A DNA stretch of 41,262 nt from a virus. Positions 1,636 to 14,189 of the stretch are shown here, piece by piece; position 1 is the first letter of the stretch; every line of letters starts with the position of its first letter. The notes below the pieces were generated by a model, which saw only the letters and a list, made by a program, of their open reading frames with translations, had not been told where the DNA came from and searched no databases. Position numbers and translations under genes: made by a program. Location of the stretch: positions 1-41,262 of IMG/VR virus record IMGVR_UViG_3300046836_000138; one strand, 5' to 3'.

Positions 1636-1947
1636 GTGCGTAGAGTCTATGTGCTGAACCGCGGCGGGCATGATTATAGTGCTGCTGAAGAGTTTGGCGA
1701 AGTGGTGTATTGCACCGAGGGGAATCTCTCCAAGTGGGACATAAACCAGATGTATCGTATCGCTGAGGAGAACCTCGTCGATAGCGAGCCAAGCGACTAC
1801 ATCGTTCTCACCTCGTTGACCTCCCTATGTAGCGTCTACAGTGCTGTCTTCGCACACAAGCATGGCCGGCTGAACCTGCTAATCTTTAAGGACGGAGGGT
1901 ATGTGGAACGGACTCTAGTGATTGGGGAGGGCGTACCCTGTGGTTAA
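1636..1947 (+). CDS. Conserved phage protein (103 aa)
   Basis: GTG start abutting the previous stop, with GGAG 9 bases upstream (1623-1626). It starts RRVYVLNRGGHDYSAAEEFG and has a central DYIVLTSLTSLCSVYSAVFA and a conserved-looking HGRLNLLIFKDGGYVERT. I recognise this layout (VLN..GHDY..AE.FGE, then LTSLT, then HGRLNLL) as a small protein family common in phages, of unknown function. It overlaps the next gene by 8 bases, so translation is probably coupled. Confidence 0.76.
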   Translation: MRRVYVLNRGGHDYSAAEEFGEVVYCTEGNLSKWDINQMYRIAEENLVDSEPSDYIVLTSLTSLCSVYSAVFAHKHGRLNLLIFKDGGYVERTLVIGEGVPCG

Positions 1948-2926
1948 AAAGTACTACGACAACACGATGATTTCAAGCTACAAGGACTGTCCTCGAAAGT
2001 ACTATCTACGCCATGTAAAGAACTGGCGCTCCGGAGGAACTTCGCTTCCACTGAGCTTCGGCCTAGCGTGGCACGCAGCGATGGACATAGTATGGCAGCA
2101 TGCAAAGCGCCTTGACAAGATGAGCCTTGCTCAAGCGGGCTATGCTGCCTTCTGTAACTCTTGGGAGGAACAAGGCTTGCCAGTTGATCTATCCCTTGAG
2201 CAGATTGAGGCCTCATCTCCTCGTGTGCCTCCAGTGGCTGCGGAGATGCTCCACGGGTATATAGATGTTCGCTGGAGGCTGCTGCAGGAAGCTGACCTCG
2301 TAGCAAGCGAGCAGCCCTTCGCCGTTCCTATCCCAGGAATGGATGAACGCTGGTACATAGGGCGCCTGGACAAGGTAATTCGCACTACCGAGGTAATTCC
2401 CCTTGAGCACAAAACTACAACGGAGTATAAAAAAGATGGAGGCTTTAAGGCTAGTTACGTCGAGGGATGGTTCAGCGATTCCCAAGTCAAAGGGTACGAG
2501 TTTGGGGGTGGGCTGTTCTTCCCCGGTGTTTCTCAGGTCTGGGTGGACTCTGCGCTGGTACACAAGACTGTCCATGACAAGTTCAGATTCATTCCAGTAT
2601 CTCACCCTATGCCTATGCTCCAAGAGTGGGTCGGGGATACAAGAAACTGGATCAGGAGGATTGAGGCAGACACTACTGCGGGGTACTTTCCAAAGAACGA
2701 AGGCTCTTGTCTTGGTAAGTTCGGCCCCTGCTCCTTCCTCCCTGTCTGTCGAACAACTCCTGACCCTGGTAAGATGGGCGAACCCCCCGAGGGATACATA
2801 ACAGAAGCTTGGGAGCCGTTTGATCTACTAGGCTTGGAAAAGATTTTTGACAAGGAGTCTACAAATGAGCAAACGAGTAACAATAGTAACGCTACAGATA
2901 AGAGTTCAGACACCGGAAGGGAGTAA
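1940..2926 (+). CDS. Cas4/RecB-like PD-(D/E)XK nuclease with Fe-S cysteines
   Basis: GTG 1940 is preferred over TTG 1922 because GGGAGG sits 9 bases before it. It has an N-terminal ISSYKDCPRKYYLRH (11-25), then SFGLAWHAAMD (39-49), the catalytic D144 of GRLD and the E156-x-K158 of PLEHKTT: the order of a PD-(D/E)XK nuclease of the Cas4/AddB group. C17 plus three C-terminal cysteines spaced C-x6-C-x5-C match the 4Fe-4S cluster of that group. It probably resects DNA ends for recombination together with the Sak4-like protein downstream. The last 21 residues are low-complexity (Asn/Ser/Thr) and are read through the start of the next gene. Confidence 0.85.
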   Translation: MVKKYYDNTMISSYKDCPRKYYLRHVKNWRSGGTSLPLSFGLAWHAAMDIVWQHAKRLDKMSLAQAGYAAFCNSWEEQGLPVDLSLEQIEASSPRVPPVAAEMLHGYIDVRWRLLQEADLVASEQPFAVPIPGMDERWYIGRLDKVIRTTEVIPLEHKTTTEYKKDGGFKASYVEGWFSDSQVKGYEFGGGLFFPGVSQVWVDSALVHKTVHDKFRFIPVSHPMPMLQEWVGDTRNWIRRIEADTTAGYFPKNEGSCLGKFGPCSFLPVCRTTPDPGKMGEPPEGYITEAWEPFDLLGLEKIFDKESTNEQTSNNSNATDKSSDTGRE

Positions 2927-3074
2927 TACAGCAGAAATGTTAGCCTTCATTAGAGAGGCTATAGAAGCTAAGGTGTCTCTGGATAAGTCTTTAGCACCTA
3001 AGGTCGCAACATCTAGGATAGACCTAGAAGATTTAGTAGTGAAACTAGTGAAGAAAGAGACAACCTATGGTTAA
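2865..3074 (+). CDS. Small hypothetical protein (69 aa)
   Basis: ATG 2865 has a perfect AAGGAG at 2852-2857 with a 7-base spacer, so it is chosen over an earlier start in the same frame. It overlaps the nuclease gene by 62 bases in a different frame. The product has a beta-like N-terminus (RVTIVTLQIRVQ), a helix (NTAEMLAFIREAIEAKV) and a Lys-rich end. No family recognised. Confidence 0.66.
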   Translation: MSKRVTIVTLQIRVQTPEGSNTAEMLAFIREAIEAKVSLDKSLAPKVATSRIDLEDLVVKLVKKETTYG

Positions 3075-3255
3075 GTTCAAGTGCCGTTTCTGCGCTAATC
3101 AAGGTGTTGAAGCTTGGGGAAACCCAGGCCACGGAGACTGGACTAAGCCTATGTTTTCCAATACTAAGCCTATGTTTTCCAACACTACCAGGGTGGAGTG
3201 TGAAAACGGCCACCGTTGGTCCGTCCCAAAACTTAACAAGGAGAAAGCAGAATGA
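3067..3255 (+). CDS. Zinc-ribbon-like small protein with internal duplication (62 aa)
   Basis: ATG overlaps the previous stop. CRFC near the N-terminus and C-ENGH near the C-terminus give a C-x2-C ... C-x3-H set that could hold one zinc ion. Between them the heptapeptide TKPMFSN occurs twice in tandem, produced by a 21-base in-frame duplication. Without the duplicate the protein would be about 55 residues. Function unknown; a nucleic-acid-binding zinc ribbon is plausible from the neighbours. Confidence 0.66.
   Translation: MVKFKCRFCANQGVEAWGNPGHGDWTKPMFSNTKPMFSNTTRVECENGHRWSVPKLNKEKAE
3142..3183 (+). repeat. 21-base in-frame tandem duplication
   Basis: Two adjacent 21-base units (3142-3162 and 3163-3183) differ only at the last base (T versus C). 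Both encode the same seven residues of the zinc-ribbon-like protein. The near-perfect copy suggests a recent duplication by slippage. Confidence 0.92.
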
Positions 3256-3419
3256 CTCAAACCTATGACTCCCGCTGCAAAGACCTTGCAGTAATCTTCA
3301 TCGAGCCTTACGTACATACGAAAGCTGACTTGGATGAGCTTGCCTGGGCTATCCAAGACACCATCGAAAGTTACACATCAGGCCTTGAGCCTAAGGCTGC
3401 CGAGAGCGCCAATGAGTAA
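3252..3419 (+). CDS. Small hypothetical protein (55 aa)
   Basis: ATG overlaps the previous stop (ATGA), with AAGGAG at 3238-3243. The product MTQTYDSRCKDLAVIFIEPY continues to a short acidic helix (KADLDELAWAIQDTIESY). It resembles short helical phage proteins of the kind 'LA..F...E....E...LA..IQ..IE', but I cannot name it. The next start codon (3412) lies inside its last codons. Confidence 0.68.
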   Translation: MTQTYDSRCKDLAVIFIEPYVHTKADLDELAWAIQDTIESYTSGLEPKAAESANE

Positions 3420-3609
3420 AAAGTTTGGGTGCGTTACCCTTCAAAAGCCTAGCCTACAGGGGCTTATCCTGATCGGTGGGATTTTTGCGATAGGTGGTCT
3501 TGGTATTCTCGCGTTAGTTCTTTCTGCCTTAACCATGAACGCTGTATCTCTGTGGGACTGCTTGGATAAGCTCGCGGTCAAAGTTATGGAAGGCCAGAAT
3601 GCCCAGTAA
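3412..3609 (+). CDS. Small single-span membrane protein (65 aa)
   Basis: ATG 3412 overlaps the upstream stop by 8 bases. One strong transmembrane helix runs from about residue 18 to 42 (GLILIGGIFAIGGLGILALV...), preceded by a basic N-terminus (MSKKFG) and followed by a soluble helix ending KVMEGQNAQ, suggesting N-in topology. It lies between nuclease and recombination genes rather than near the late lysis genes. Function unknown; membrane tethering, exclusion or inner-membrane remodelling are all possible. Confidence 0.62.
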   Translation: MSKKFGCVTLQKPSLQGLILIGGIFAIGGLGILALVLSALTMNAVSLWDCLDKLAVKVMEGQNAQ

Positions 3610-4408
3610 CGCAAAGGATGCTGCCGCAGCTACCTCCCGGCGCATTCTCGTCTTGGGAGACACTGGTGCAGGAAAGACTACACAGTTCCTCACCTTGAAA
3701 GGAAAGAAGTACATTCATCTTTTCGACCCGAACGCTCTTATGTCCTTAAGGGGCTACGATGTTGACTATGATGAGTACTTGCCTACCGCGATTCGAGGAG
3801 CCATCCAGAGCCTCTCTAAGGACAAGGGCGGCGATGCGCCGAAGAATCAGAAGTCTGACGTATATCGCACCTTCGAGCTCGAGTTCAACGAGCGCCTTGA
3901 GAATGGCTTCTACAATCAATACGACTGGATAGGCTTTGACTCCGCTACCACGCTGCTCGACCTAATGATGGATCGTGTCCTCTCGATCAACGGGCGCCTG
4001 GGCACCTGGCCTCAAGAAGATGATTGGGGTCCACAGATGATTGCCTTTACCAACATCTGCCGCACACTCGCGGGGGCTGGAAAGAACATCTACATGACCG
4101 GGCATATGCAAGATAAGAAGAACCGGAAAACTGGCGCTAGCTCTCGTGTCCCGATGATGACTGGCCAGCTGGCGCAGAAGATTCCCCTTCTCTTTACGGA
4201 CATCTTCGGCTTTGACTCTGACAAGACGGACGATGGAAAGGTAGGTTACTTTATGCACACGGTACGAGACCGTGAGTTTACAGTAATTCGTACTTCCATC
4301 AAAGGGCTAGAGCCGGTAGAAAATGTCACGATCCAGTGGGAGACTACAAAGGACCCTGTTGGGCAAGGACTTGGGGGAATTCTTTCATGGTCGGAGAAGA
4401 ATGGCTGA
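3599..4408 (+). CDS. Sak4-like P-loop ATPase (phage recombinase type)
   Basis: Starts inside the upstream gene's end. It has Walker A GDTGAGKTT (20-28), a Walker B-like YDWIGFDSATT (108-118), and a later TGHMQDKK segment typical of RecA/RadA-like cores. Phage proteins with this layout, about 230-270 residues and next to a RecB/Cas4-like nuclease and a DUF669-like protein, are annotated Sak4 or 'AAA family ATPase' and act in single-strand annealing or strand exchange. Here it probably works with the nuclease at 1940 and the protein at 5026. The assignment to Sak4 rather than another RecA-fold ATPase is by motif and context only. Confidence 0.8.
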   Translation: MPSNAKDAAAATSRRILVLGDTGAGKTTQFLTLKGKKYIHLFDPNALMSLRGYDVDYDEYLPTAIRGAIQSLSKDKGGDAPKNQKSDVYRTFELEFNERLENGFYNQYDWIGFDSATTLLDLMMDRVLSINGRLGTWPQEDDWGPQMIAFTNICRTLAGAGKNIYMTGHMQDKKNRKTGASSRVPMMTGQLAQKIPLLFTDIFGFDSDKTDDGKVGYFMHTVRDREFTVIRTSIKGLEPVENVTIQWETTKDPVGQGLGGILSWSEKNG

Positions 4409-4497
4409 GGCTTCTAAAGTTCGTAGTAATCGTGCTGCTTTGTGGCTGGGTAGTGCGACAGATAGCTTTGTACGGCCAAATAGTAAGATGGTGGTAG
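4387..4497 (+). CDS. Putative membrane micro-protein (36 aa)
   Basis: ATG 4387 has GGGGGA at 4373-4378 (8-base spacer) and overlaps the previous gene by 22 bases. The product is MVGEEWLRLLK, then a hydrophobic helix (FVVIVLLCGWVV), then an amphipathic tail ending IVRWW. A second frame over the same bases (from 4401) is open but has no good ribosome site and no recognisable character. Its length makes this uncertain. Confidence 0.42.
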   Translation: MVGEEWLRLLKFVVIVLLCGWVVRQIALYGQIVRWW

Positions 4498-4504
4498 GAG
4501 GCCC

Positions 4505-5005
4505 ATGACACACGGAACAGAAATGCCGTCAATGTTTAAGAATGCGCTAACCAGCACTAACTATGCTGGAACTGCATTCTTAGACACCACTCGTAATAGC
4601 CCAACCTCTTCAACTTGGAGTACAGGTATGTACGCTGAGGCGAGGAAGGAGAAGGCGTATGAAAATTTTTTAAATCCACCAGATAGGACGCCGCCAATGC
4701 CAGACGCAAAAGAACCAACGATAGATCTTCGAATCGTAAAAGTCGTAATCGCAGACGTAGACAAGAATCTCCCTGTCGCTTCCAGAGTGCTTTTCCAGGG
4801 AGAAGAACAGGTAACAGAACTGACGGATGAAGAGCTATTCTTCGAGGTTCCCATTGTGGACCTGTTGAAGAAACACAACGAACTTCGTGCGAAGAATCTG
4901 AACAAGGCTGATACCTCGAAGGCCGGAAAAGATGTCTTTCTTGAGCCCATCCGAGTTCGTGACTTGAGGATGGTAGTAGTCGAAATCGCTGATTTTTCGA
5001 ACTAA
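4505..5005 (+). CDS. Hypothetical early protein (166 aa)
   Basis: ATG follows GGAGG closely (about 4497-4501). The N-terminal 65 residues are Ser/Thr/Asn-rich and look disordered; residues about 70-165 look folded, with repeated beta-type segments (IDLRIVKVVIADV, LRMVVVEIADF) at both ends, as in a small barrel or sandwich. I do not recognise it. It sits between the Sak4-like gene and the DUF669-like gene, so a role in replication or recombination is inferred from position alone. Confidence 0.65.
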   Translation: MTHGTEMPSMFKNALTSTNYAGTAFLDTTRNSPTSSTWSTGMYAEARKEKAYENFLNPPDRTPPMPDAKEPTIDLRIVKVVIADVDKNLPVASRVLFQGEEQVTELTDEELFFEVPIVDLLKKHNELRAKNLNKADTSKAGKDVFLEPIRVRDLRMVVVEIADFSN

Positions 5006-5025
5006 ACTAACCTAGGACTAAACCA

Positions 5026-5472
5026 ATGGCAAAGATTATTGTTAACCTGGCTGACCCCTCCGTCTCGGAGCCGAAGCCTGTTCCAGACTCCATGTATGAC
5101 CTGGAGATCGTCTCCGCTGAGTCCACAAGCAGCCAGGGCGGTTCGCCTCAAGTGGAGGTTCACATCGGAATCCTCGGCCATGAGGACGCACCGAACGTGC
5201 GGCACTACATCTCTCTCCCCAAGGAGGGTGATGACGCCGGAAAGCGCGGCACCAAGCTGCTCTTTGCGAAGCGCTTCTGCTCGCTGTTCAAGATTCCCTA
5301 CGACGAGACGGGCTTCGATACAGACGACTTCACTGGAAGCAAGGCTCGCGCCGAGCTTACCACGGAGGAGCGCAACGGGAATACCTACAACAAGCTGATT
5401 CTTCCTCGCCTGAAGGACGAGGGCGGCCTAAGCTCGACAAAGGCTGTCGCTAAGCCTCCGAAACGCGGGTAG
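5026..5472 (+). CDS. DUF669-like putative ssDNA-binding protein (148 aa)
   Basis: The pattern is a Pro-rich start (PVPDSMYDLEIVSAES), then a strand pair (PQVEVHIGILG...), then LFAKRFCSLFKIPYDETGFDTDDFTGSKARAELTTEERNG with a final N..Y..LILPRL. This order of a beta half, a helix with a conserved FCxxF-type core and an 'aka.l....rnG..YN' strand resembles the DUF669 proteins that accompany phage recombinases and act as ssDNA-binding proteins. The C-terminus is Lys/Pro-rich rather than acidic. The assignment is by resemblance and context. Confidence 0.58.
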   Translation: MAKIIVNLADPSVSEPKPVPDSMYDLEIVSAESTSSQGGSPQVEVHIGILGHEDAPNVRHYISLPKEGDDAGKRGTKLLFAKRFCSLFKIPYDETGFDTDDFTGSKARAELTTEERNGNTYNKLILPRLKDEGGLSSTKAVAKPPKRG

Positions 5473-5616
5473 GCTACTTCCTGCAGCGGCCTTCACAAGA
5501 GGCCGTTGTGGAAAGTGGGCTGCGGCGATTACGGGCGAGGCGGGCATCGACCGCCTAATTGACAACGTAACGATCCTGAGGCGTCCCCTACAGGCCAGCC
5601 CACTACAGGAGGTTAG
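5473..5616 (+). other. Structured gene-free leader, possible RNA element
   Basis: This is one of the few large gaps in the early operon. It holds a perfect 9-bp inverted repeat, AGTGGGCTG (5514-5522) with CAGCCCACT (5596-5604), that encloses a hairpin AGGCGG-7-CCGCCT (5538-5556). A second hairpin CGGCCT-7-AGGCCG (5487-5505) lies just after the upstream stop. The closing stem ends 3-4 bases before the AGGAGG-type ribosome site of the next gene. There is no T-run and no tRNA T-arm. It may be a regulatory leader or a small structured RNA. Confidence 0.42.
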
Positions 5617-5988
5617 ATGAAAGTAATCGTTCCAGGACATACATACGTATTAGAATCTATTGATGGAGTCTATCCGCAGGGAATAGTTTTTGTAAAGAGG
5701 GTTGGAGACTATTACCCTGGTAACACAGGGCAGCCTCACGCAGGTACAACTATACAAGAGGTATGCCGAATGCTGTTAGATAGAGTTAGATACGTTAATG
5801 GACAGATCTCTTGTCTAGAGAGCGAACTTATTCTAGGACATCTCAACACGATAATCGCTCTCTGTGAGTTCCGAGCAGCTAGAGTCCACGGCCGAGTCTT
5901 AGATATAGAGACCATTGACGAACTGGAGCACACCGCTTCTTGCAAGGTCTGTGGGCATCTTCAGTGTGAGCAACATGAAGCTACGTGA
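5617..5988 (+). CDS. Acb2/Tad1-like putative signal sponge with zinc-finger-like tail (123 aa)
   Basis: Good SD (AGGAGG) before ATG. The first 45 residues (PGHTYVLESIDG, then GIVFVKRVGDYYPGNTGQ, then AGTTIQEV) followed by a helical hairpin (about 46-93: EVCRMLLDRVRYVN ... LGHLNTIIALCEFRAARVHGR) match a common phage family. As I recall, its hairpin resembles the Acb2/Tad1 hairpin domain of proteins that bind cyclic nucleotides made by CBASS and Thoeris defences. The tail CKVCGHLQCEQH (109-120) could bind zinc and is not part of that hairpin. That this family sequesters signals is inference. Confidence 0.6.
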   Translation: MKVIVPGHTYVLESIDGVYPQGIVFVKRVGDYYPGNTGQPHAGTTIQEVCRMLLDRVRYVNGQISCLESELILGHLNTIIALCEFRAARVHGRVLDIETIDELEHTASCKVCGHLQCEQHEAT

Positions 5989-6223
5989 CCTCGTGAAACC
6001 ACTAAGTGAGCAGACCGATGAAGAGCTACAGTCTCGTCTACGAGAGATACGTCACTCTAGAGAAAATGTTCGGCCTGCGGCGAAAAAGATCGTGGCCCGC
6101 ATTGAGGAGAAAACTGAGCGAAAGAAGGTGTCGAGGGTTCAAGACCTTCTTGAGGACCTTACACCTGAGGAAAAACTTAAGCTTGTTCAACAACTGTTAG
6201 CCCAAGGAGAGGGAAATGAGTGA
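5975..6223 (+). CDS. Conserved small phage protein (82 aa)
   Basis: ATG overlaps the previous gene by 14 bases. The product reads MKLRDLVKPLSEQTDEELQS, then RLREIRHSRENVRPAAKKIV, then a Lys/Glu-rich linker and a C-terminal helix (LTPEEKLKLVQQLLAQ). The pattern 'MTDEEL..RLR.LRH.R...RPA' is a familiar family of small charged phage proteins, all-helical and of unknown function. It overlaps the ParB-methyltransferase gene by 8 bases, so the two are probably translated together. Confidence 0.75.
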   Translation: MKLRDLVKPLSEQTDEELQSRLREIRHSRENVRPAAKKIVARIEEKTERKKVSRVQDLLEDLTPEEKLKLVQQLLAQGEGNE

Positions 6224-7535
6224 TGCAATACCGCAGGGTATTCCAAGAATTCTGAATATCGACGACATTAAGTGGGACACGCGCTATCGTGCAGAGTTCG
6301 GCGATCTGGAGGCGATGGCAGACTCCATTAGGGAAAAGGGGATAATCCAGCCAATCTCAGTTTCTACGAAGATGAAACTCCTCGCTGGGGAGCGGCGTAT
6401 TCGAGCGGCAAAGATGGCTGGGCTAACGAAAATTCCTGCCCTTGTACGGGAAGTAACTGGAGAGGTAGATGAGCGCGAAATCGAGCTTCTTGAAAATATC
6501 TATCGAGAAGACTTTACCTGGGCAGAGAAAGTCAAAGGTATTAGGGACATTGACCGTCTATACAGAGAAAAGCATATGGACTGGTCCGGACGGAAAACGG
6601 CGGAGCTTCTCAACAAAGGGATTGGAAGTGTCTCCAGATATCTACAACTGGCCAGTGCTATTGATTCCTTTCCTGAGCTTGCTGAGGTTGCTACAGCCGA
6701 GGAAGCCCTCAAGGTTGTCAAAAAGATTCAAGAAAAAGAGATTGTATCGGAGCTACGAAAGCGGCATGACGTTGACACGCCAGGCTTCAGCAAGGGCCTC
6801 AAAGCGATGCTCAAGATCGGCGAAAACAACTATAACATCGGGGATACTTTTAAGGGCCTCTCAGAACTCAGGACAAACGGAGTCGTGAACGTCATTGAGT
6901 GCGATCCTCCATATGGGATTGACCTCAAAGTGATGAAACGCGCAAAGGACAGCGCAACGGCGACGATCCACAAGTACAATGAGATCGACATAGACGAATA
7001 CCCACAATTTCTGCATACACTCACAAAGGAGCTTTACCGCGTAGCGGCACAGCACTCGTGGTTGATCTTCTGGTTCGGACCAACGTGGCAGCATCAAGTC
7101 CTCACAAGCCTCCGCGCAGCGGGTTGGAGTGTAGATGAGATTCCCTGTATCTGGGTAAAGTCTCAGGGACAGACCATGCAACCTGAAGTATACCTTGGCA
7201 GGGCGTATGAACCGTTCTATCTCTGCCGCAAAGGGATTCCTACCCTCATAAAGAGGGGCCGGCTGAACGTGTTTGATTTCGCTACGACACCTGGCCAGCA
7301 GAAGATTCACACCACGGAGAGACCTCTTCCCCTTATGGAAGAACTGTTGGAAACGGTAGGGCTTCCTGGCCAAGTGGTCTTGGTTCCCTTCCTTGGAAGT
7401 GGCAACACACTAAGGGCTGCCTACAAATGCGGTATGAAAGCCTTTGGCTGGGAGAAGTCCTCCGAGTACAAGGACCAGTTCATGCTAGCCATTGAGGCAG
7501 ACTCAAGGGCACTTGGGGCGGATGAAAATGAGTAA
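6216..7535 (+). CDS. ParB-domain / HTH / DNA methyltransferase fusion
   Basis: The N-terminal ParB/Srx-like domain (about 12-95) includes DLEAMADSIREKGIIQPI and the signature AGERRIRAAK (57-66). A ParB/KorB-like helix-turn-helix follows (about 122-146). The C-terminal half is a DNA methyltransferase with motif IV DPPYG (230-234) ahead of motif I FLGSG (392-396), so it has beta-type order and modifies an exocyclic amino group (N6-adenine or N4-cytosine). The family is known from phages, where such enzymes can protect DNA from host restriction. With a ParB-type reader and five dispersed palindromes in the same genome, sequence-targeted methylation or genome marking is a possible extra role (inference). 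Confidence 0.88.
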   Translation: MSDAIPQGIPRILNIDDIKWDTRYRAEFGDLEAMADSIREKGIIQPISVSTKMKLLAGERRIRAAKMAGLTKIPALVREVTGEVDEREIELLENIYREDFTWAEKVKGIRDIDRLYREKHMDWSGRKTAELLNKGIGSVSRYLQLASAIDSFPELAEVATAEEALKVVKKIQEKEIVSELRKRHDVDTPGFSKGLKAMLKIGENNYNIGDTFKGLSELRTNGVVNVIECDPPYGIDLKVMKRAKDSATATIHKYNEIDIDEYPQFLHTLTKELYRVAAQHSWLIFWFGPTWQHQVLTSLRAAGWSVDEIPCIWVKSQGQTMQPEVYLGRAYEPFYLCRKGIPTLIKRGRLNVFDFATTPGQQKIHTTERPLPLMEELLETVGLPGQVVLVPFLGSGNTLRAAYKCGMKAFGWEKSSEYKDQFMLAIEADSRALGADENE

Positions 7536-7788
7536 GAAGGTCATTATCTACATGAATGAGCAGTTGCACGCTCGCGTACCTAAACACGGTGTAATGACCG
7601 TGCAGCATGGTTCGGCCAAGTGGTACACTAACGAGATTGACTTGAAGCTTAGCATAAGCGCCAAGGTCTACCTTCGTCAAGACGAGGGAATAACCGTAGC
7701 TGGAAGGAAGATACGAGTGCTTTATAAACCAGAACTTTGCAGTGACGTGAAGAGCCACGAAGTGAAGGCTTGGATAGAGGTCACTTGA
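7528..7788 (+). CDS. Hypothetical protein (86 aa)
   Basis: ATG 7528 is chosen over ATG 7522 because GGGGCGG (7514-7520) then has a 7-base spacer. It starts MSKKVIIYMNEQLHARVPKHG and appears to be mostly beta (VMTVQHGSAKWYTNEIDLK, GITVAGRKIRVLY). No family recognised. Its stop overlaps the TTG start of the next gene. Confidence 0.62.
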   Translation: MSKKVIIYMNEQLHARVPKHGVMTVQHGSAKWYTNEIDLKLSISAKVYLRQDEGITVAGRKIRVLYKPELCSDVKSHEVKAWIEVT

Positions 7789-8789
7789 GCTTCACTCCGG
7801 AGACTGCTCCTCGTGTAATTCCTGCCGAAGGCCCCAAGAACGCAAAGATTGCGATCGTGGGTGAGGCGGGAGGCTCCTATGAGAATACTCAACTGCGGCC
7901 ATTTGTCGGCCCAGCAGGGGGAGTTCTTGAGCACTGTATGCACGCTGCAGGAATCATCCGCAGCGAGGTCTACATTACAAACGTAGTGAAGCTCCAGCCA
8001 AAAGGGAATGAGATCGCGCCGTACTTTAACGGTGCAAAGGGACAGTTCACCTTCGAGGGAAAACAATGGGTAGACGCTTTGCTAGAGGAGTTGCAAGGAG
8101 TAAAACCAAACGTGGTTGGAGTGTGCGGCGCTACCGCGCTGTGCGCGCTTACTGGAAAGACCAAGATCACAAAGTACAGGGGCTACGTATTGGAGGGTGT
8201 GAATCAACTGAAGGTGATTCCCCTTATTCACCCTGCGGCAGCATTGCGTGGTCAGTACGTATGGCGCTATCTCATAGCCACAGACCTAAAGAAGATTAAA
8301 GCGGAGAGCGGCTTTCCTGAAATCAGAAGGCCCCAAAGGCAGCTAGTCACTGAGTTCTCCCACGTTCACGAAGTACTTGAATGGATTGAGTACTTTGAGA
8401 AGGCAACTCGCGTGTGCTTTGATATTGAGGTGCTAAACTATGAACTGGCTTGCATTAGTTTTAGTGACACTGCTAGCACTGCTTGCAGTATTCCTCTCGA
8501 TCATCGCTGGAGCGAGAGCGACGAAGCTCTCATTTGGAGAGGGCTGCAAAGAGTTCTTGGAAATCCTGCGTCCACAAAAGTAGGCCAAAATCTTATCTTT
8601 GATATACACTTTCTACTTACAAAGTGTGGCATCGAAGTGAAGGGTCCTTTAGAAGATACGATGGTGGCTCACTCAGTGATGTTCCCAGAGCTGAACAAGG
8701 GGCTTGGTTTCCTTGTGTCCCTCTACGGAGGGAGTCAAGCTTACTACAAGGACATGGTGAAATTCTCTAACATAAAGGAAGAGTCATGA
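7785..8789 (+). CDS. Uracil-DNA glycosylase-like domain fused to N-terminal part of a 3'-5' exonuclease
   Basis: TTG 7785 overlaps the previous stop (TTGA); no ATG or GTG is available in frame. Residues 20-156 form a family 4-type UDG fold: VGEAGGSYENTQ..PFVGPAGG (25-46), ITNVVK (64-69) and LIHPAA (147-152) with H149. The usual four Fe-S cysteines are missing. Residues 205-330 are DnaQ-like: Exo I D213/E215 (FDIEV) and Exo II N269/D273 (NLIFD). The frame ends before Exo III, which is at the start of the polymerase gene at 9037. This is the N-terminal part of an SPO1-like family A polymerase carried as a separate protein. Confidence 0.85.
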   Translation: MSFTPETAPRVIPAEGPKNAKIAIVGEAGGSYENTQLRPFVGPAGGVLEHCMHAAGIIRSEVYITNVVKLQPKGNEIAPYFNGAKGQFTFEGKQWVDALLEELQGVKPNVVGVCGATALCALTGKTKITKYRGYVLEGVNQLKVIPLIHPAAALRGQYVWRYLIATDLKKIKAESGFPEIRRPQRQLVTEFSHVHEVLEWIEYFEKATRVCFDIEVLNYELACISFSDTASTACSIPLDHRWSESDEALIWRGLQRVLGNPASTKVGQNLIFDIHFLLTKCGIEVKGPLEDTMVAHSVMFPELNKGLGFLVSLYGGSQAYYKDMVKFSNIKEES

Positions 8790-9040
8790 CAGCGCCAAGT
8801 CACGACCTCAACGACTGTTGTCAGCATTGCAAGTGCTGGCTTGGGGATCGTTCTAGTAAAGATGGTGAGGCCCAGGGAGAGTGTCATCTAGACCCTCCTC
8901 AGGGAGTTGGAATGGTCCCTAGGCCTAGCCTCCTAAATCCAAAGGCTATGGACCTGCAACTGATCTTTGGCTGGCCCACTGTGAAGGCGCTACAGTGGTG
9001 CAGCAGGTTCGAAAGAGCTGTTGAACCGACGAAGCAATGA
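8786..9040 (+). CDS. Zinc-binding micro-protein lying inside the split polymerase locus (84 aa)
   Basis: ATGA overlaps at both ends (8786-8789 and 9037-9040) link it to the two polymerase parts. CQHCKCWLG, GECHLDPPQG and ALQWCSRFERA give the pattern C-x2-C ... GEC..PP ... WC..F of a short zinc-ribbon family widespread in phages and bacteria ('CGNC.FW...GECRR.PP ... DWCGEF'). Its position exactly between Exo II and Exo III of the polymerase exonuclease is unusual. It may be a cargo gene inserted there or may help the two parts assemble. Confidence 0.72.
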   Translation: MTAPSHDLNDCCQHCKCWLGDRSSKDGEAQGECHLDPPQGVGMVPRPSLLNPKAMDLQLIFGWPTVKALQWCSRFERAVEPTKQ

Positions 9041-10563
9041 ACAACGATTTCCTAACCTACAACGCGCTGGATGCAGCGTGCACTATTGAGTGCCGGGACG
9101 CCTTCTGGGAGGACCTCTCTTTGGAAGGCTATCAGCCTGCTTATGACATGACGGTGGCAATCTACGAACCCCTCATGTTTATGCAGACTCGTGGCATCAA
9201 AGTAAACTTTGAGGCGCTTACTTCCACTAAGGTAAGCATTCTCGCAAGTGCAGCCGAGAAACAAGAAGAGCTGAACAAACTTTGCGGAAGGGAACTGAAT
9301 GTCAACTCCTCCAAGGACTGCCAAGCCTATTTCTACGTTGAGCGAGGAATTGCTCCTTACTATAACGAAGGACGAGTCACGGTGGACGACTTGGCCCTGC
9401 AACGTATGTCGAGAGGTACTGCTAAGCGGGGAGGGCTTCGAGAAGCAAAGCTTGTTCAGGAGATTCGTGGTCTTCAAAAGCTACATGGAACCTATCTCGA
9501 CATTGAGTTTGACCCTGACGGACGGATGCGTTGTAGCTATAACCCTCGAGGGACTAAATTTGGACGACTAAGCTCGAGTAAGACTGTTTTTGGCACTGGC
9601 ACGAACATGCAGAACTTGCCTCAAGAGTTCAAGAAGTTTCTTGTGGCAGACCCAGGTTATGTCTTGTGGGAAGTGGATAAGCGGCAAGCTGAGTGGGTTG
9701 TAGTCGCCTACCTAACGCAAGACGCGAATATGCTTAGCGTCGTGGAGAGCGGGCAGGATACTCACATCCACACCGCTTCGTTGATGTTCAACGTAGAAAA
9801 GGAGCTACTTGAATATGAAGCCAAGATCGTGGGGAACAATAGCGATAGTGACTACATTAGCGGGCTGCGCACTAGTGATGACAGGCTGCGCAGCTTGGAG
9901 GGAAAACTCCCTCGCACCATGTCAGCCAGACAGTGCGGAAAGAAGTCTAACCACGGCCTCAACTACGATGAAGGGTTCGCAAAGTTTGCCCTCATCAACG
10001 AGATGGAACAATCAGAATCCAAACGAATCTGGCTCCTGTACCGCCACATTTATCCTGGACTGCCCCTGTGGTATGAAGCCATTAAGCGGCAGCTGTCTCG
10101 AGACAGAACTCTTACCAACTGTTTCGGACGAAAAGTAAGATTCATGGATGCTTGGGGGCCGGACCTTTGGAAGGCGGCTTACTCCATGCTTCCGCAATCC
10201 ACGGTAGTTGATTCACTAAACCAGGGGATGGTAAGAATCTACCACGATGAAGAGCTGTGCGATGCACATGCCAGTAATATAGATTTACTTGGGCAGGTTC
10301 ATGACTCAATTCTTCTTCAAGTTCCGGAGTGGCTAATTCAAGACCCTAGCTTTCAGGATGTACAGAAGCAGGTCTATGACTATGTCTCACCTGAGCTGAC
10401 CTACAATGGGAGGACCTTTAAGATTGCCACAGACTCCAAGTTTGGCCTCAACTGGGGCGGATTTCATAAGGAGCTAAATCCGCTTGGAATGAGAGAGGTC
10501 AAAAGCCACAATGAACTAAAGAAGACCTTGGGGGAACTCGGTGTCCAAGCGAGAACTGGATGA
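9037..10563 (+). CDS. Family A DNA polymerase, catalytic subunit (with Exo III only)
   Basis: It begins MNNDFLTYNALDAACT, which is the Exo III motif (Y8, D12) completing the exonuclease begun in the previous-but-one gene. Polymerase motif A is WEVDKRQAEW with D214. Motif B is RQCGKKSNHGLNY (R298, K302, H306, Y310), with His where Pol I has Phe762. Motif C is QVHDSI (D423), with Ser in place of the usual Glu. The two catalytic Asp residues are present. It probably replicates the phage genome together with the UDG-exonuclease protein. The frame runs to within the start of the helicase-like gene (23-base overlap). Confidence 0.9.
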   Translation: MNNDFLTYNALDAACTIECRDAFWEDLSLEGYQPAYDMTVAIYEPLMFMQTRGIKVNFEALTSTKVSILASAAEKQEELNKLCGRELNVNSSKDCQAYFYVERGIAPYYNEGRVTVDDLALQRMSRGTAKRGGLREAKLVQEIRGLQKLHGTYLDIEFDPDGRMRCSYNPRGTKFGRLSSSKTVFGTGTNMQNLPQEFKKFLVADPGYVLWEVDKRQAEWVVVAYLTQDANMLSVVESGQDTHIHTASLMFNVEKELLEYEAKIVGNNSDSDYISGLRTSDDRLRSLEGKLPRTMSARQCGKKSNHGLNYDEGFAKFALINEMEQSESKRIWLLYRHIYPGLPLWYEAIKRQLSRDRTLTNCFGRKVRFMDAWGPDLWKAAYSMLPQSTVVDSLNQGMVRIYHDEELCDAHASNIDLLGQVHDSILLQVPEWLIQDPSFQDVQKQVYDYVSPELTYNGRTFKIATDSKFGLNWGGFHKELNPLGMREVKSHNELKKTLGELGVQARTG

Positions 10564-11743
10564 TTGGCTTACGAGATATCTTGAGTACACAGAGCAGACA
10601 GAGCCTCCTACGACGTATCACACTTGGTGTGGTCTATCGGTCGTGGCGGGGGCGCTCCAACGCAAGGTGTATCTGGAGTGGGGATTCGAGACGATCTATC
10701 CGAACCTCTTTGTTGTTCTTATTGGGCCCTCAGGAAAGGCCAGAAAAGGGGTGGCGCTCGGGATTGCTAAGTCATTACTACTCGGACTACCAAGTGTGTC
10801 TATTGCGCCGGAATCGACTTCTGGCCGCGAAGCGCTCATCCTTGCGATGAAGCGATCGCTGAGTAACTTCTCTCTACCTAACGGCGGCAAGATAAACTTT
10901 CACTGCTCCATTACTGCTTTCAGTGAGGAGCTTTCAGTTCTACTCGGCCAGGGAGACATAAAGCTCCTTGCAAACTTAACGGACTGGTATGACTCAAAAG
11001 ATGAGTGGGAATATGAAACGATCGGACGGGGTAAGGATTCGCTCCAAGGTCTTTGTTTCAATCTTATGGGAGCAACAGCACCCGACTGGCTACAGTCCAT
11101 GCTCCCACAGGAAGCTGTTGGTGGAGGCTTTACGTCGCGCGTTATCTTTATCGTGGAGGAAGCAAAGGGAAAGACGGTTCCCGAGCCCCCTCCCCCCAAC
11201 AAGGAGCTGGGGGATCGTCTACGTAGAGACCTTGAACGGATCAACCAACTCAAAGGAGAATTCACGTTCACGGAGTCGGGGAAGAGATGCTATATCAACT
11301 GGTACAAAGAGCAAGACCGTCTACTTGGGGAAGATACGCCAGCGGTAAAGGATACGCGCTTCGCAGCTTACTGTGAGCGCCGAGCCACACATCTCCGAAA
11401 GCTAATGATGCTCGTAAGCGCTAGCCAGGGTGATACACTGAAGCTCGACCAAGTCGACTTTGATAAGGCTATACGAATTCTACAAACCGCTGAAGTGAAA
11501 ATGGGTAAGACCTTCGGCGGTCTCGGCCAGGCAAAGAACTCAGACGTCACAGAGAAAATCTTGAATTACATCAAGAGCGTCAAGACCACAACTCGAAAGG
11601 TGATAATTGCAAGGTTCTACCGCGATGTAGATATGTTTGCGCTGAACAACATCGAAGCGATGCTGGACGCAATGAAGGTCGTAAAGATTGAGGTGATACC
11701 TAAAACTAACGAAAAGGTGTATAGATGGATCGGGAACGACTAA
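10541..11743 (+). CDS. DUF3987-like helicase/primase-type protein (400 aa)
   Basis: GTG start overlapping the polymerase gene, with a GGGGGA site. It has a P-loop-like IGPSGKARKG (61-70) in which Gly follows the Lys, a family variant rather than the textbook GKT/S, and an acidic AFSEELS (126-132) in the Walker B position. A winged-helix-like C-terminus follows (about 330-395: TEKILNYIKSVKTTTRKVIIARFYRDV). Proteins of this kind next to phage polymerases serve as replicative helicases or helicase-loaders. I see no separate primase in the window, so initiation may depend on the host or on this protein. It is the last replication gene before the palindrome at 11745. Confidence 0.74.
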   Translation: MSKRELDDWLTRYLEYTEQTEPPTTYHTWCGLSVVAGALQRKVYLEWGFETIYPNLFVVLIGPSGKARKGVALGIAKSLLLGLPSVSIAPESTSGREALILAMKRSLSNFSLPNGGKINFHCSITAFSEELSVLLGQGDIKLLANLTDWYDSKDEWEYETIGRGKDSLQGLCFNLMGATAPDWLQSMLPQEAVGGGFTSRVIFIVEEAKGKTVPEPPPPNKELGDRLRRDLERINQLKGEFTFTESGKRCYINWYKEQDRLLGEDTPAVKDTRFAAYCERRATHLRKLMMLVSASQGDTLKLDQVDFDKAIRILQTAEVKMGKTFGGLGQAKNSDVTEKILNYIKSVKTTTRKVIIARFYRDVDMFALNNIEAMLDAMKVVKIEVIPKTNEKVYRWIGND

Positions 11744-11744
11744 T

Positions 11745-11764
11745 GTTCCATGTTGGAACAGTAG
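11745..11764 (+). repeat. Dispersed palindromic element, copy 2
   Basis: GTTCCA-TGT-TGGAAC plus AGTAG, starting one base after the stop of the helicase-like gene. It fills most of the 30-base gap before the next start. The core is identical to the copies at 19684 and 37130 read on the plus strand. Confidence 0.88.
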
Positions 11765-11773
11765 AGGATTAAC

Positions 11774-12007
11774 ATGATAACCTCTGGTAATATAAAGCTA
11801 GACGCCATCGTCGCAGAGCTTGAAGCCACAGTACTAGGCTTCGTCGAAGGAAACGCCCTCAAAGCCGCTGAGATAGCAGCCTTGAAGGCGGAGATTACAA
11901 CGCTAAACGAAGCGCTAAAGGCAGCTAACGCACTGCTCGAAAAGCGTAAGCGGAAGCCTAAGCCTTTGGCACCACAAGAGCTGCCGCAGCCGCCTGCACC
12001 TGGTTAG
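11774..12007 (+). CDS. Small coiled-coil protein (77 aa)
   Basis: AGAGGA precedes ATG 11774. Residues 8-57 are an Ala/Leu/Glu heptad-rich helix (AALKAEITTLNEALKAANALLEK), then a basic patch (KRKRKPK) and a Pro-rich tail. It is the last rightward gene and its final 50 bases overlap, tail to tail, the end of the last leftward gene. Function unknown; it could be a scaffold or DNA-binding oligomer. Confidence 0.6.
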   Translation: MITSGNIKLDAIVAELEATVLGFVEGNALKAAEIAALKAEITTLNEALKAANALLEKRKRKPKPLAPQELPQPPAPG

Positions 12008-12212
12008 CAATCGAAGCGAGAACGTCCCGCTCAATGCTAGGCAGCGCTGCCAGCAGCGAAGCGTTCAGCTTAGCCAACTGCAGCATGATGTTGACGGCGC
12101 TAGAATCCGCCGCGATGCTGGTAAAGAAGGTTGCCAGCAGTGGCAGAGCCGCTTTCTGTGCATCGGTTTTTGCAAGGGCTACCGCCCCAGAGATTACGTC
12201 GCTCAAGCTCAT
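11958..12212 (-). CDS. Small helical protein, last gene of the late operon (84 aa)
   Basis: AAAGGAA precedes the ATG at 12212. The product is almost entirely Ala/Leu-rich helix (MSLSDVISGAVALAKTDAQK ... SIERDVLASIANQVQAAAAALV). It has no strong transmembrane stretch. It lies directly downstream of the DUF5675-like gene, so a role in lysis or virion maturation is possible but unsupported. The last 50 bases overlap the convergent coiled-coil gene. Confidence 0.66.
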   Translation of the reverse strand: MSLSDVISGAVALAKTDAQKAALPLLATFFTSIAADSSAVNIMLQLAKLNASLLAALPSIERDVLASIANQVQAAAAALVVPKA

Positions 12213-12229
12213 TTCTGTTCCTTTCGTGG

Positions 12230-12787
12230 TTAGATCTTCGGGGGTGCCCCAGCAACTATAGCACCGTAGCCAAAGGCATAGGCAACGGTTTGAAGTGCCA
12301 TAGCATACTGTGGAAACATCTGCGCTGCCACACTAAGGACTAGCATTCCTACCGCGTGTCCTCGAGTGCTGTTAAACCAAGCATCTATTACTTTCATGGG
12401 TACTCCAGTAGTGATTGGTGCGGGTACTTCTCTGTTTATGCCTATGGTAATCTGATCTGCAGCCAAGAGCTTAGTGAATAGCTCTGCAAAGGCCTCATGT
12501 GACTCACCTACAAAATCCTTCGCCTTCGTTCGGCCTACAAGTAAGCAGTCCTTCGTATCTTTTGCCGTATTCCCCCAGTGAATCTCAATCCCTGTATGCC
12601 CTGGTACAGCCAGCAAAAAGGGCATTATACGGTTAAACTTTACTGAGTGCAAAAGTTTCACGTCGTACACTCCGGCTGGAATTGGAGGCTGCGGTTCCAG
12701 AACATAGCACTCAAATGTGCCATCTATAAGTAGCTGTGAGATTACACTTGTAGCGCTTGACTCCAGCGGAGTGATTGAAAGTTTCAC
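12230..12787 (-). CDS. DUF5675-like protein with C-terminal membrane helices (185 aa); lysis candidate
   Basis: Residues 1-115 fit DUF5675: a start like 'TSVISQLLIDGTFECYVLE', IPAGVYDV, FNRIMPFLLAVPG, then GIEIHWGNTAKDTKDCLLVGRT and FAELFTKL. The H-x-G-N ... C arrangement resembles the HG/GC active-site pattern of L,D-transpeptidase-type cell-wall enzymes, so a cell-wall role is possible but unproven. Residues about 140-180 (GHAVGMLVLSVAAQMF, YAFGYGAIVAGA) are hydrophobic and could span the membrane. No standard lysozyme or amidase is seen in the window, which makes this the best endolysin-like candidate. Confidence 0.62.
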   Translation of the reverse strand: MKLSITPLESSATSVISQLLIDGTFECYVLEPQPPIPAGVYDVKLLHSVKFNRIMPFLLAVPGHTGIEIHWGNTAKDTKDCLLVGRTKAKDFVGESHEAFAELFTKLLAADQITIGINREVPAPITTGVPMKVIDAWFNSTRGHAVGMLVLSVAAQMFPQYAMALQTVAYAFGYGAIVAGAPPKI

Positions 12788-13089
12788 TGTGCGTCAATCT
12801 TCTTCTGAACGGCCTTTGGTACAGTAGCGTCTATAGAGAGCTTCTTCAGCGTTCTTGGGCGGTCCTTCTCTGGAGTAGCAAGGATGAGAGTCTGTGCCCA
12901 CATTCCCTCGTGCATGACACGAGACCAGTTGTCACTCTTGTAGTCATGCCAGTAAAGTAGCCCGATCGCTGCAAGAACTAAGACTACGAAGATAACACTC
13001 TTACCTCGTGCTTGTAGCTCTAAAGGGCCAAGTTTAAGTCCCATATCGTCGGACCTCCGACCGTTAGTGGTTTCCTCTTCGTCAGCCAT
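12784..13089 (-). CDS. Small single-span membrane protein, holin or spanin candidate (101 aa)
   Basis: ATG 13089 (MADEEETTNGRR) is chosen because AGAGGGG lies just upstream. It has one transmembrane helix (about 32-48, SVIFVVLVLAAIGLLYW) after an acidic cytoplasmic-type N-terminus and before a soluble, basic C-terminus. Its stop overlaps the DUF5675-like start. Topology and position fit a class III holin or an inner-membrane spanin part, but I cannot assign either. Confidence 0.62.
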   Translation of the reverse strand: MADEEETTNGRRSDDMGLKLGPLELQARGKSVIFVVLVLAAIGLLYWHDYKSDNWSRVMHEGMWAQTLILATPEKDRPRTLKKLSIDATVPKAVQKKIDAQ

Positions 13090-13115
13090 CAAGACCCCTC
13101 TCATAGTTAGTGGTT

Positions 13116-14189
13116 TTATGATGCAGCCATAAAGTGTCCTGAAAACTCAAGGCCTGTACCATCCTTAAAGATTGCATTACTACCAATGGCCGTACTCGCG
13201 ACAGTCCTGGAAAAGATTTGAATTTGATTAGCTCCACTAAAACAAGTTGCTGCCATAGAAACAATTGCTGTAGCCAAAGTTCCATCATTTCCAACGGCAA
13301 CAATTGTTGCACCTCCAGTATTAGTAAATGGTAAACCAGAGATCGTAGTTGTACTCCCTGTTCCAATTGTATTAATAGTTAAGAGCCCAGAAAAAGTCAC
13401 TAAACGACCAACTTTAGTGTAACTACCCACTTGAGTTGTATAGGTAGTTGTTCCTCCAAGCGAAGGAATCCAAGTTCCTTCCTCATACATCTTGAGTGTA
13501 TGATTTGTTGGAGTTCCAGAACCTCCAGCAGAGGCATACACAATAGCTGGGCTACCAGCAGATGCAAAGATAGTTGGAGTTCCCGCAGCAGAGCCAGCTA
13601 CTTGTAGGTGGCTAGTCGCGCCCGGCTGGTGGATAACCTCGAACTGAGTTATACTAGCCCCACCAGAATCATTAGTAGCACCAGTTAAAAAGTTTAGGGA
13701 GCCTGTGCCCTTTGTAACAAAAAATATCCCAGAATTCGTAGCACCTTGAGCAAAAGCGTTCACATTTCCAATTGCAGGAGAGAACCCCCAATTTGAAGTT
13801 GGAGATGCGGAATCTAGTAATTGTAACCCTAGTGTGCCATTATTCGTCTTGAGCGACAGCGATCCGGTCGTACCGGAGTCGATGATGGGGGTGAATACAC
13901 TTTTCCAGCGATTTGCTGGAAGACCAGAAGAAGCAAAACCATCTGTATTAGGCCGAACATTTCCAGAGCCCACTTGGCAAATAATGTCTGACCCACCACC
14001 TGTTGCCAGAATCAAAACACCTGCTACAGCGGAATCTACCTTAGGCGTAACTACACTCGTCGTGGCTGTTACAGTACCCGCAGATATAGCAATCGCCGGT
14101 GCGCCACGATAGAAGAAGTTGTTAAGATCTTGTAGCCACGCCGCGCTTATTGTAGGCGGGCCACCTTGAACAAATGTAGTATCAGCCAT
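13116..14189 (-). CDS. Tail fibre protein (357 aa)
   Basis: It starts MADTTFVQGGPPTISAAWLQDLNNFFY, an N-terminal style common in podovirus tail-associated proteins, and continues through long Gly/Thr/Ser/Ala-rich beta repeats. The C-terminus has the tail-fibre module 'KMYEEGTWIPSLGGTTTYTT' followed by VGSYTKVGRLVTFSG and a final beta domain. It probably contacts the host surface. Its adenine- and thymine-rich, repetitive coding differs from its neighbours, as is usual in host-range genes. Confidence 0.8.
   Translation of the reverse strand: MADTTFVQGGPPTISAAWLQDLNNFFYRGAPAIAISAGTVTATTSVVTPKVDSAVAGVLILATGGGSDIICQVGSGNVRPNTDGFASSGLPANRWKSVFTPIIDSGTTGSLSLKTNNGTLGLQLLDSASPTSNWGFSPAIGNVNAFAQGATNSGIFFVTKGTGSLNFLTGATNDSGGASITQFEVIHQPGATSHLQVAGSAAGTPTIFASAGSPAIVYASAGGSGTPTNHTLKMYEEGTWIPSLGGTTTYTTQVGSYTKVGRLVTFSGLLTINTIGTGSTTTISGLPFTNTGGATIVAVGNDGTLATAIVSMAATCFSGANQIQIFSRTVASTAIGSNAIFKDGTGLEFSGHFMAAS

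Follow-up and report, generated by a model that had tools for sequence, protein, structure and literature searches.

A phage UDG-linked family A DNA polymerase divided between Exo II and Exo III, with a probable two-chain proofreading site and an exchangeable gene in the break

The window analysed here is a whole IMG/VR virus record of 41,262 bases (IMGVR_UViG_3300046836_000138), in which a family A DNA polymerase is encoded in two pieces separated by a small gene (Table 1). Chain A contains Exo I (D-x-E) and Exo II (N-x3-D) and ends at a TGA (8787-8789). Its start is placed at TTG 7785, within a TTGA overlap with the stop of the upstream gene, and TTG 7770 is a possible alternative; the Exo I and Exo II residues are D213/E215 and N269/D273 counted from the former and D218/E220 and N274/D278 counted from the latter, and they are invariant or nearly so among relatives. 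Chain B runs from ATG 9037 to TGA 10561-10563, with motifs A, B and C intact. The original prediction, that the polymerase is split between Exo II and Exo III with an 84-residue gene in the break, is correct to the base in its open reading frames, coordinates and ATGA overlaps. The DUF3987 gene is kept as a neighbour in both split and unsplit relatives, and the fusion of a ParB N-terminal domain with an N6/N4 DNA methylase is conserved and adjoins the polymerase in many of them.

Table 1. Features of the split polymerase locus, in window coordinates
Feature	Coordinates	Strand	Basis
ParB-N + N6/N4 DNA methylase fusion, upstream neighbour	6216..7535	+	Pfam, synteny
Chain A: UDG domain (family-4/UdgX-like) fused to 3'-5' exonuclease domain	7785..8789	+	Pfam, AF2, fold comparison
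AAGGAAGAG, Shine-Dalgarno-like, in the last chain A codons; would serve whichever gene comes next	8775..8783	+	Sequence
ATGA overlap, chain A stop / Zn84 start	8786..8789	+	Sequence
Zn84: 84-aa four-Cys ORF in the break	8786..9040	+	ATG 8786, TGA 9038-9040
ATGA overlap, Zn84 stop / chain B start	9037..9040	+	Sequence
Chain B: Exo III helix (Y8, D12) + thumb, palm and fingers of family A DNA polymerase	9037..10563	+	Pfam DNA_pol_A, motif residues, AF2
DUF3987 primase-helicase-like gene, directly downstream	10541..11743	+	Pfam DUF3987 (E 1e-10), phrog_14296 DNA primase (E 4e-54)

Profile models assign chain A to UDG (Pfam, E 6e-19) and DNA_pol_A_exo1 (E 9e-13) and chain B to DNA_pol_A (E 2e-32). 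Chain B has the features of a family A (Pol I type) polymerase, namely motifs A (D), B (R, K, Y) and C (H, D) and a palm, fingers and thumb fold. Modelled alone with AF2, each chain reaches a mean pLDDT of 93.5, values below 50 in chain A being confined to its C-terminal tail (332-339). The chain B model aligns to Klenow 485-928 (Z ~30) and begins exactly at the Exo III helix; its first helix (3-29) holds Y8 and D12, and residue 8 aligns to residue 174 of 1kln, which is Klenow Y497. The Klenow alignment and the relatives together bear out the earlier assignment of Exo I and Exo II to chain A and of Y8 and D12, at the opening of chain B, to Exo III. The DEDDy motif set (Exo I D-x-E, Exo II D, Exo III Y-x3-D) is complete, but it is spread over two chains. 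The UDG fold of chain A superimposes on UdgX and T. maritima UDG (6ajp/1vk2; Z 22, 1.4-1.7 A), in a Foldseek-based comparison that the UDG domain dominates and that is barely informative on the exonuclease portion. Because the curated NCBIfam cut-offs for family 4 and UdgX are missed (TIGR00758, 91.7 bits vs 125.3; TIGR03914, 91.1 vs 190), we file this domain at superfamily level only.

A sequence error is very unlikely as the cause of the split, because a near-identical second contig and dozens of relatives carry the same break. The second IMG/VR contig (L006; surveyed loci carry L numbers) shows the same arrangement and matches window positions 1770-13564 with one mismatch and no gap in 11,795 bases. 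Immediately beyond, L006 is without ~71 bases of the window (13565-13635), inside a 357-aa minus-strand ORF, and it diverges more downstream.

To place the split among its relatives, some 150 related loci from alignment-based IMG/VR scans and annotated phages were annotated by profile HMMs, and 93 complete representatives were retained after redundancy removal. Forty-three of the 93 are split between Exo II and Exo III, 15 between thumb and motif A and one (L003) after Exo III; the rest are unsplit. The second recurrent break, just before motif A, likewise holds small genes (L011, at 6599-6814, L035, L036 and L038-L042, with further cases in L045, L047, L049-L051, L117, L170, which is Vibrio phage VS-ABTNL-3, and L164, which is MEP401), and it arose at least twice among the surveyed loci. 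A helical family of ~72 aa recurs in seven of these motif-A splits, and in two loci a GH25-type lysozyme gene lies inside the split DNA polymerase (L047, 4950-5816; L049, 4908-5783).

Several single loci deserve mention in their own right. In L003 (MW202554), an unannotated NrdR-like zinc-ribbon ORF (~2980-3138) lies across the break after Exo III. L034 encodes an otherwise unsplit UDG-PolA with a single in-frame TGA (5959-5961) exactly in the Exo II/III break loop; no start codon follows soon after, and the TGA may be a nascent break, recoding or a sequence error. L043 (~6780-7740) and L092 (~8390-9360) carry in-frame insertions of >300 aa in polymerase motif B, between GKK and SNH(S/G)LNY, in L092 additionally to an Exo II/III split. 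With a Cys at the start and GN at the end before Ser, these insertions look like inteins; a Pfam search with them gave no match.

In a joint tree, the Exo II/III splits form a clade that includes the window (22 rows), a distant clade (20 rows, among them Caulobacter phage Kuura) and a lone outlier, L025. A single origin, modelled by holding all these splits together in the tree, is rejected (p-AU 6.3e-5), and the chain A tree, which has bootstrap support values, forces three changes. We conclude that the cut between Exo II and Exo III arose at least twice, and probably three times; independent gains are a more parsimonious history than one gain with many re-fusions, which is a possible one. 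The chain B tree, a quick tree, recovers the same split groups as the chain A tree. This agreement indicates that the partner chains were inherited together and speaks against chain swapping between lineages. Chain A tails in both clades end alike ([IVL]K-x-[DE]-[DES] stop), which we considered as a sign of common descent, but an embedded Shine-Dalgarno sequence may partly explain the likeness and it is modest evidence.

The junctions are compact, lying within 20 nt in 50/57 downstream cases and 45/49 upstream ones. Across the 43 split loci, the chain A tail binds the anti-Shine-Dalgarno sequence more strongly than do synonymous recodings (p 0.002) or the rest of the chain (p 6e-9), the window's own tail being unexceptional against its synonymous recodings. 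Such a Shine-Dalgarno-like tail would let any inserted gene be translated. Readthrough fusion was considered and rejected, as the stop and start share a frame only in L017.

The contents of the breaks are diverse: 76 ORFs fall into 52 families. Pfam domains among them are HNH_3 (four inserts, including those of L133 and L027), DUF7768, DUF3310, DUF7220, GH25 lysozyme and others, and the break of L160 holds one LAGLIDADG-like ORF that scores below the curated cut-off. The Exo II/III break is present without any gene in L009, L017, L020 and L096 of the window clade and in L131, L159 and L161 of the distant clade. Within each of the sister pairs L007/L017, L018/L020 and L092/L096, one member has a break gene and the other has none, and no relocated copy was found in the partial flanks examined.

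Only L016, whose polymerase is 68% identical, has a homologue of Zn84 in the corresponding position; the two small proteins are 45% identical and all four Cys are kept. What had been predicted as an 84-residue zinc-binding gene is therefore a real gene, and zinc binding is suggested by C12, C15, C33 and C72. Nothing convincing was found for Zn84 in Pfam, PHROGs or NCBIfam, and no relatives in bacterial genome contigs or plasmids. Synechococcus phage MinM1 (E 0.01) and, with less similarity, Caulobacter phage BL57 (E 0.6) have distant four-Cys relatives; both matches are weak but backed by shared C, C, C, C and PP/WC motifs, and in both phages the gene sits in a run of accessory genes, far from any polymerase. 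Given the gene-less breaks, the unrelated inserts and the differences between sisters, Zn84 is best read as a passenger in the break. Inheritance within subclades is nevertheless seen for some break genes (the ~72-aa helical family of the motif-A split and, near the window clade, genes with a CPTC tail) and hints at a use for some of these.

How the break was first opened is a separate matter. A homing endonuclease gene may have inserted and left the polymerase gene in pieces, later being replaced so that Zn84 now sits in the scar. We regard this origin as possible, if tentative. It accords with the HNH_3 domains and the LAGLIDADG-like ORF in the same break of other lineages, and Aeh1 nrdA with mobE offers a precedent (PMC2988022). 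However, nucleases are absent from most breaks, among them the basal and the gene-less breaks in the window clade, and they could have entered an already split gene, as discussed for phage 25 (PMC2988022). The window's own break holds no endonuclease gene, and Zn84 is without a family match. The earlier proposal that the inserted gene is the scar of a lost mobile element is a possible reading: homing-type nucleases occupy the same break in other lineages, but Zn84 has no similarity to nucleases and its distant relatives are ordinary accessory genes of other phages. A homing-type insertion concerns origin only and is compatible with Zn84 as a passenger.

The other role first proposed for the zinc gene, a subunit holding the two halves together, fares worse. 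What speaks for Zn84 or another break gene as a bridge or regulator of the split polymerase is that the tight ATGA overlaps imply co-expression, Zn84 is retained at the same place in L016 and one helical family recurs in seven motif-A splits. However, seven loci share the break without a gene, four of them in the window clade, most other breaks hold unrelated genes, sisters differ in whether a gene is present and the distant relatives of Zn84 lie away from any polymerase. No gene is conserved wherever the break exists, and relatives with the break but without the zinc gene are what the original prediction itself named as an argument against bridging. We consider a bridging or regulatory subunit unlikely, and strongly disfavour it as a general rule.

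Passenger or not, the gene interrupts an enzyme whose active-site residues have been preserved. In all 43 non-redundant split representatives, D and E of Exo I and N and D of Exo II are kept on chain A and Y and D of Exo III on chain B; the polymerase motifs are kept wherever they could be aligned. In the few pairs with estimable dS, dN/dS values of 0.03-0.16 point to purifying selection on both chains; most pairs are saturated. Chain A ends ~10 residues past the exonuclease domain, and Exo III begins 7 residues into chain B. The two pieces are complementary, and no conserved residue is lost. Together, the tail and head flanking the break in the window amount to 16 residues, compared with a loop of 10-20 residues (median 15, n=43) in unsplit relatives. 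Taken together, the conserved residues, the dN/dS values and the loop length are best explained by an exonuclease that remains in use; as the original prediction held, a working site would then have to draw on both chains. A different mode of action for the exonuclease, or its being unnecessary, is conceivable, but its conservation argues against this. In particular, chain A might be a decayed or free-standing UDG-nuclease and proofreading might have been abandoned, as the physical separation of the halves would permit, but the retention of exonuclease residues on both chains, the conserved adjacency and the congruent chain trees make this highly improbable. Least credible of all is the restoration of one polymerase chain by a self-splicing intron or a split intein. 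The authors of MEP401 did propose an intron for their split PolA (PMC10580990), the corresponding polymerase gene of SPO1 (gp31) is interrupted by a group I intron, and two relatives have an apparent intein in motif B. However, there was no Rfam match in the window or eight relatives at the gathering threshold and none at E<=10 over 8400-9400; the ~10 and 7 flanking residues are too few for the parts of an intein, stop and start codons delimit the halves separately, and gene-less junctions hold no intron to remove.

We therefore return to two chains that work together. Chains A and B would be translated successively from one message through overlapping stop and start codons and would associate non-covalently, the 3'-5' proofreading site becoming complete only once chain B docks its Exo III helix onto chain A. 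The cut lies in the loop just before that helix, with no net loss of residues. After the split, the stop/start junction would behave as a gene boundary at which small genes of unrelated kinds, homing-type nucleases among them, are gained and lost, Zn84 being one such passenger, probably dispensable for holding the halves together. As a whole, this account of a split UDG-PolA with a two-chain proofreading site and an exchangeable passenger gene seems to us likely; the gene layout, the recurring break, the kept catalytic residues and the turnover of inserted genes are shown by the data, and the assembly, proofreading in trans and route of fission are what we infer. More generally, and with a slight leaning in its favour, we propose that phage family A polymerases have been cut repeatedly and independently at one point of the exonuclease active site, that building the proofreading site from two chains is a stable and widespread solution in which proofreading may be regulated or exchangeable, and that the junction is a dock for accessory genes.

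It would be unusual for a DEDDy exonuclease to draw its catalytic residues from two polypeptides, and such a site suggests separable or tunable proofreading in an enzyme family used in biotechnology. The unsplit, exonuclease-cut and pre-motif-A-cut forms, with and without break genes, are a natural series for how an essential enzyme tolerates fission. They also illustrate that a gene lodged between the halves of an enzyme need not belong to it.

Splits of family A polymerases were already known, as had been noted for this locus, and there are published phage polymerases in two pieces with a small gene between them. As far as we have searched the open-access literature, the novelty lies in a cut that recurs within the exonuclease active site; no account of a polymerase divided between Exo II and Exo III was found there. 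One published case is that of the Methylophilales OM43 phages MEP401 and MEP402, in which PolA is split with a small ORF between the halves and the authors suspected an intron (PMC10580990). Like the window, these phages have a family A polymerase in two ORFs and a small gene of unknown function in the break. However, their cut, placed by eye, lies in the palm just before motif A, which leaves the proofreading site on one chain, and profile models detected no UDG domain. Essential two-chain enzymes that reassemble are known from gp43A/gp43B of T4-like phages (phage 25, 44RR) and from Aeh1 nrdA, where the break holds a homing endonuclease or sequence that is not translated; activity has been shown for the split NrdA of Aeh1, and phage 25 gp43A/B co-purify with polymerase activity (PMC2988022). 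These are a family B polymerase and a ribonucleotide reductase, and neither is cut across an exonuclease active site. In fractured genes with split inteins (Dassa 2009, cited in PMC6892783; MIJ3 PolB), two pieces of an enzyme gene likewise flank another gene, whereas the window is without intein halves. The same domain order and homologous chains are found in Desulfofustis phage LS06-2018-MD01, Microcystis phage Mel-JY34, SPO1 gp31 and phiLo PolA (9qhs), but there as one continuous chain (in SPO1 with an intron). Two isolated phages are closer in arrangement. Vibrio phage vB_VspS_VS-ABTNL-3 has a split UDG-PolA with a gene in the break, although its cut falls between thumb and motif A and its break gene encodes 184 aa. 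Caulobacter phage Kuura has the same Exo II/III split as the window, but with two unrelated small genes in the break, and its two chains are annotated merely as hypothetical protein and DNA polymerase.
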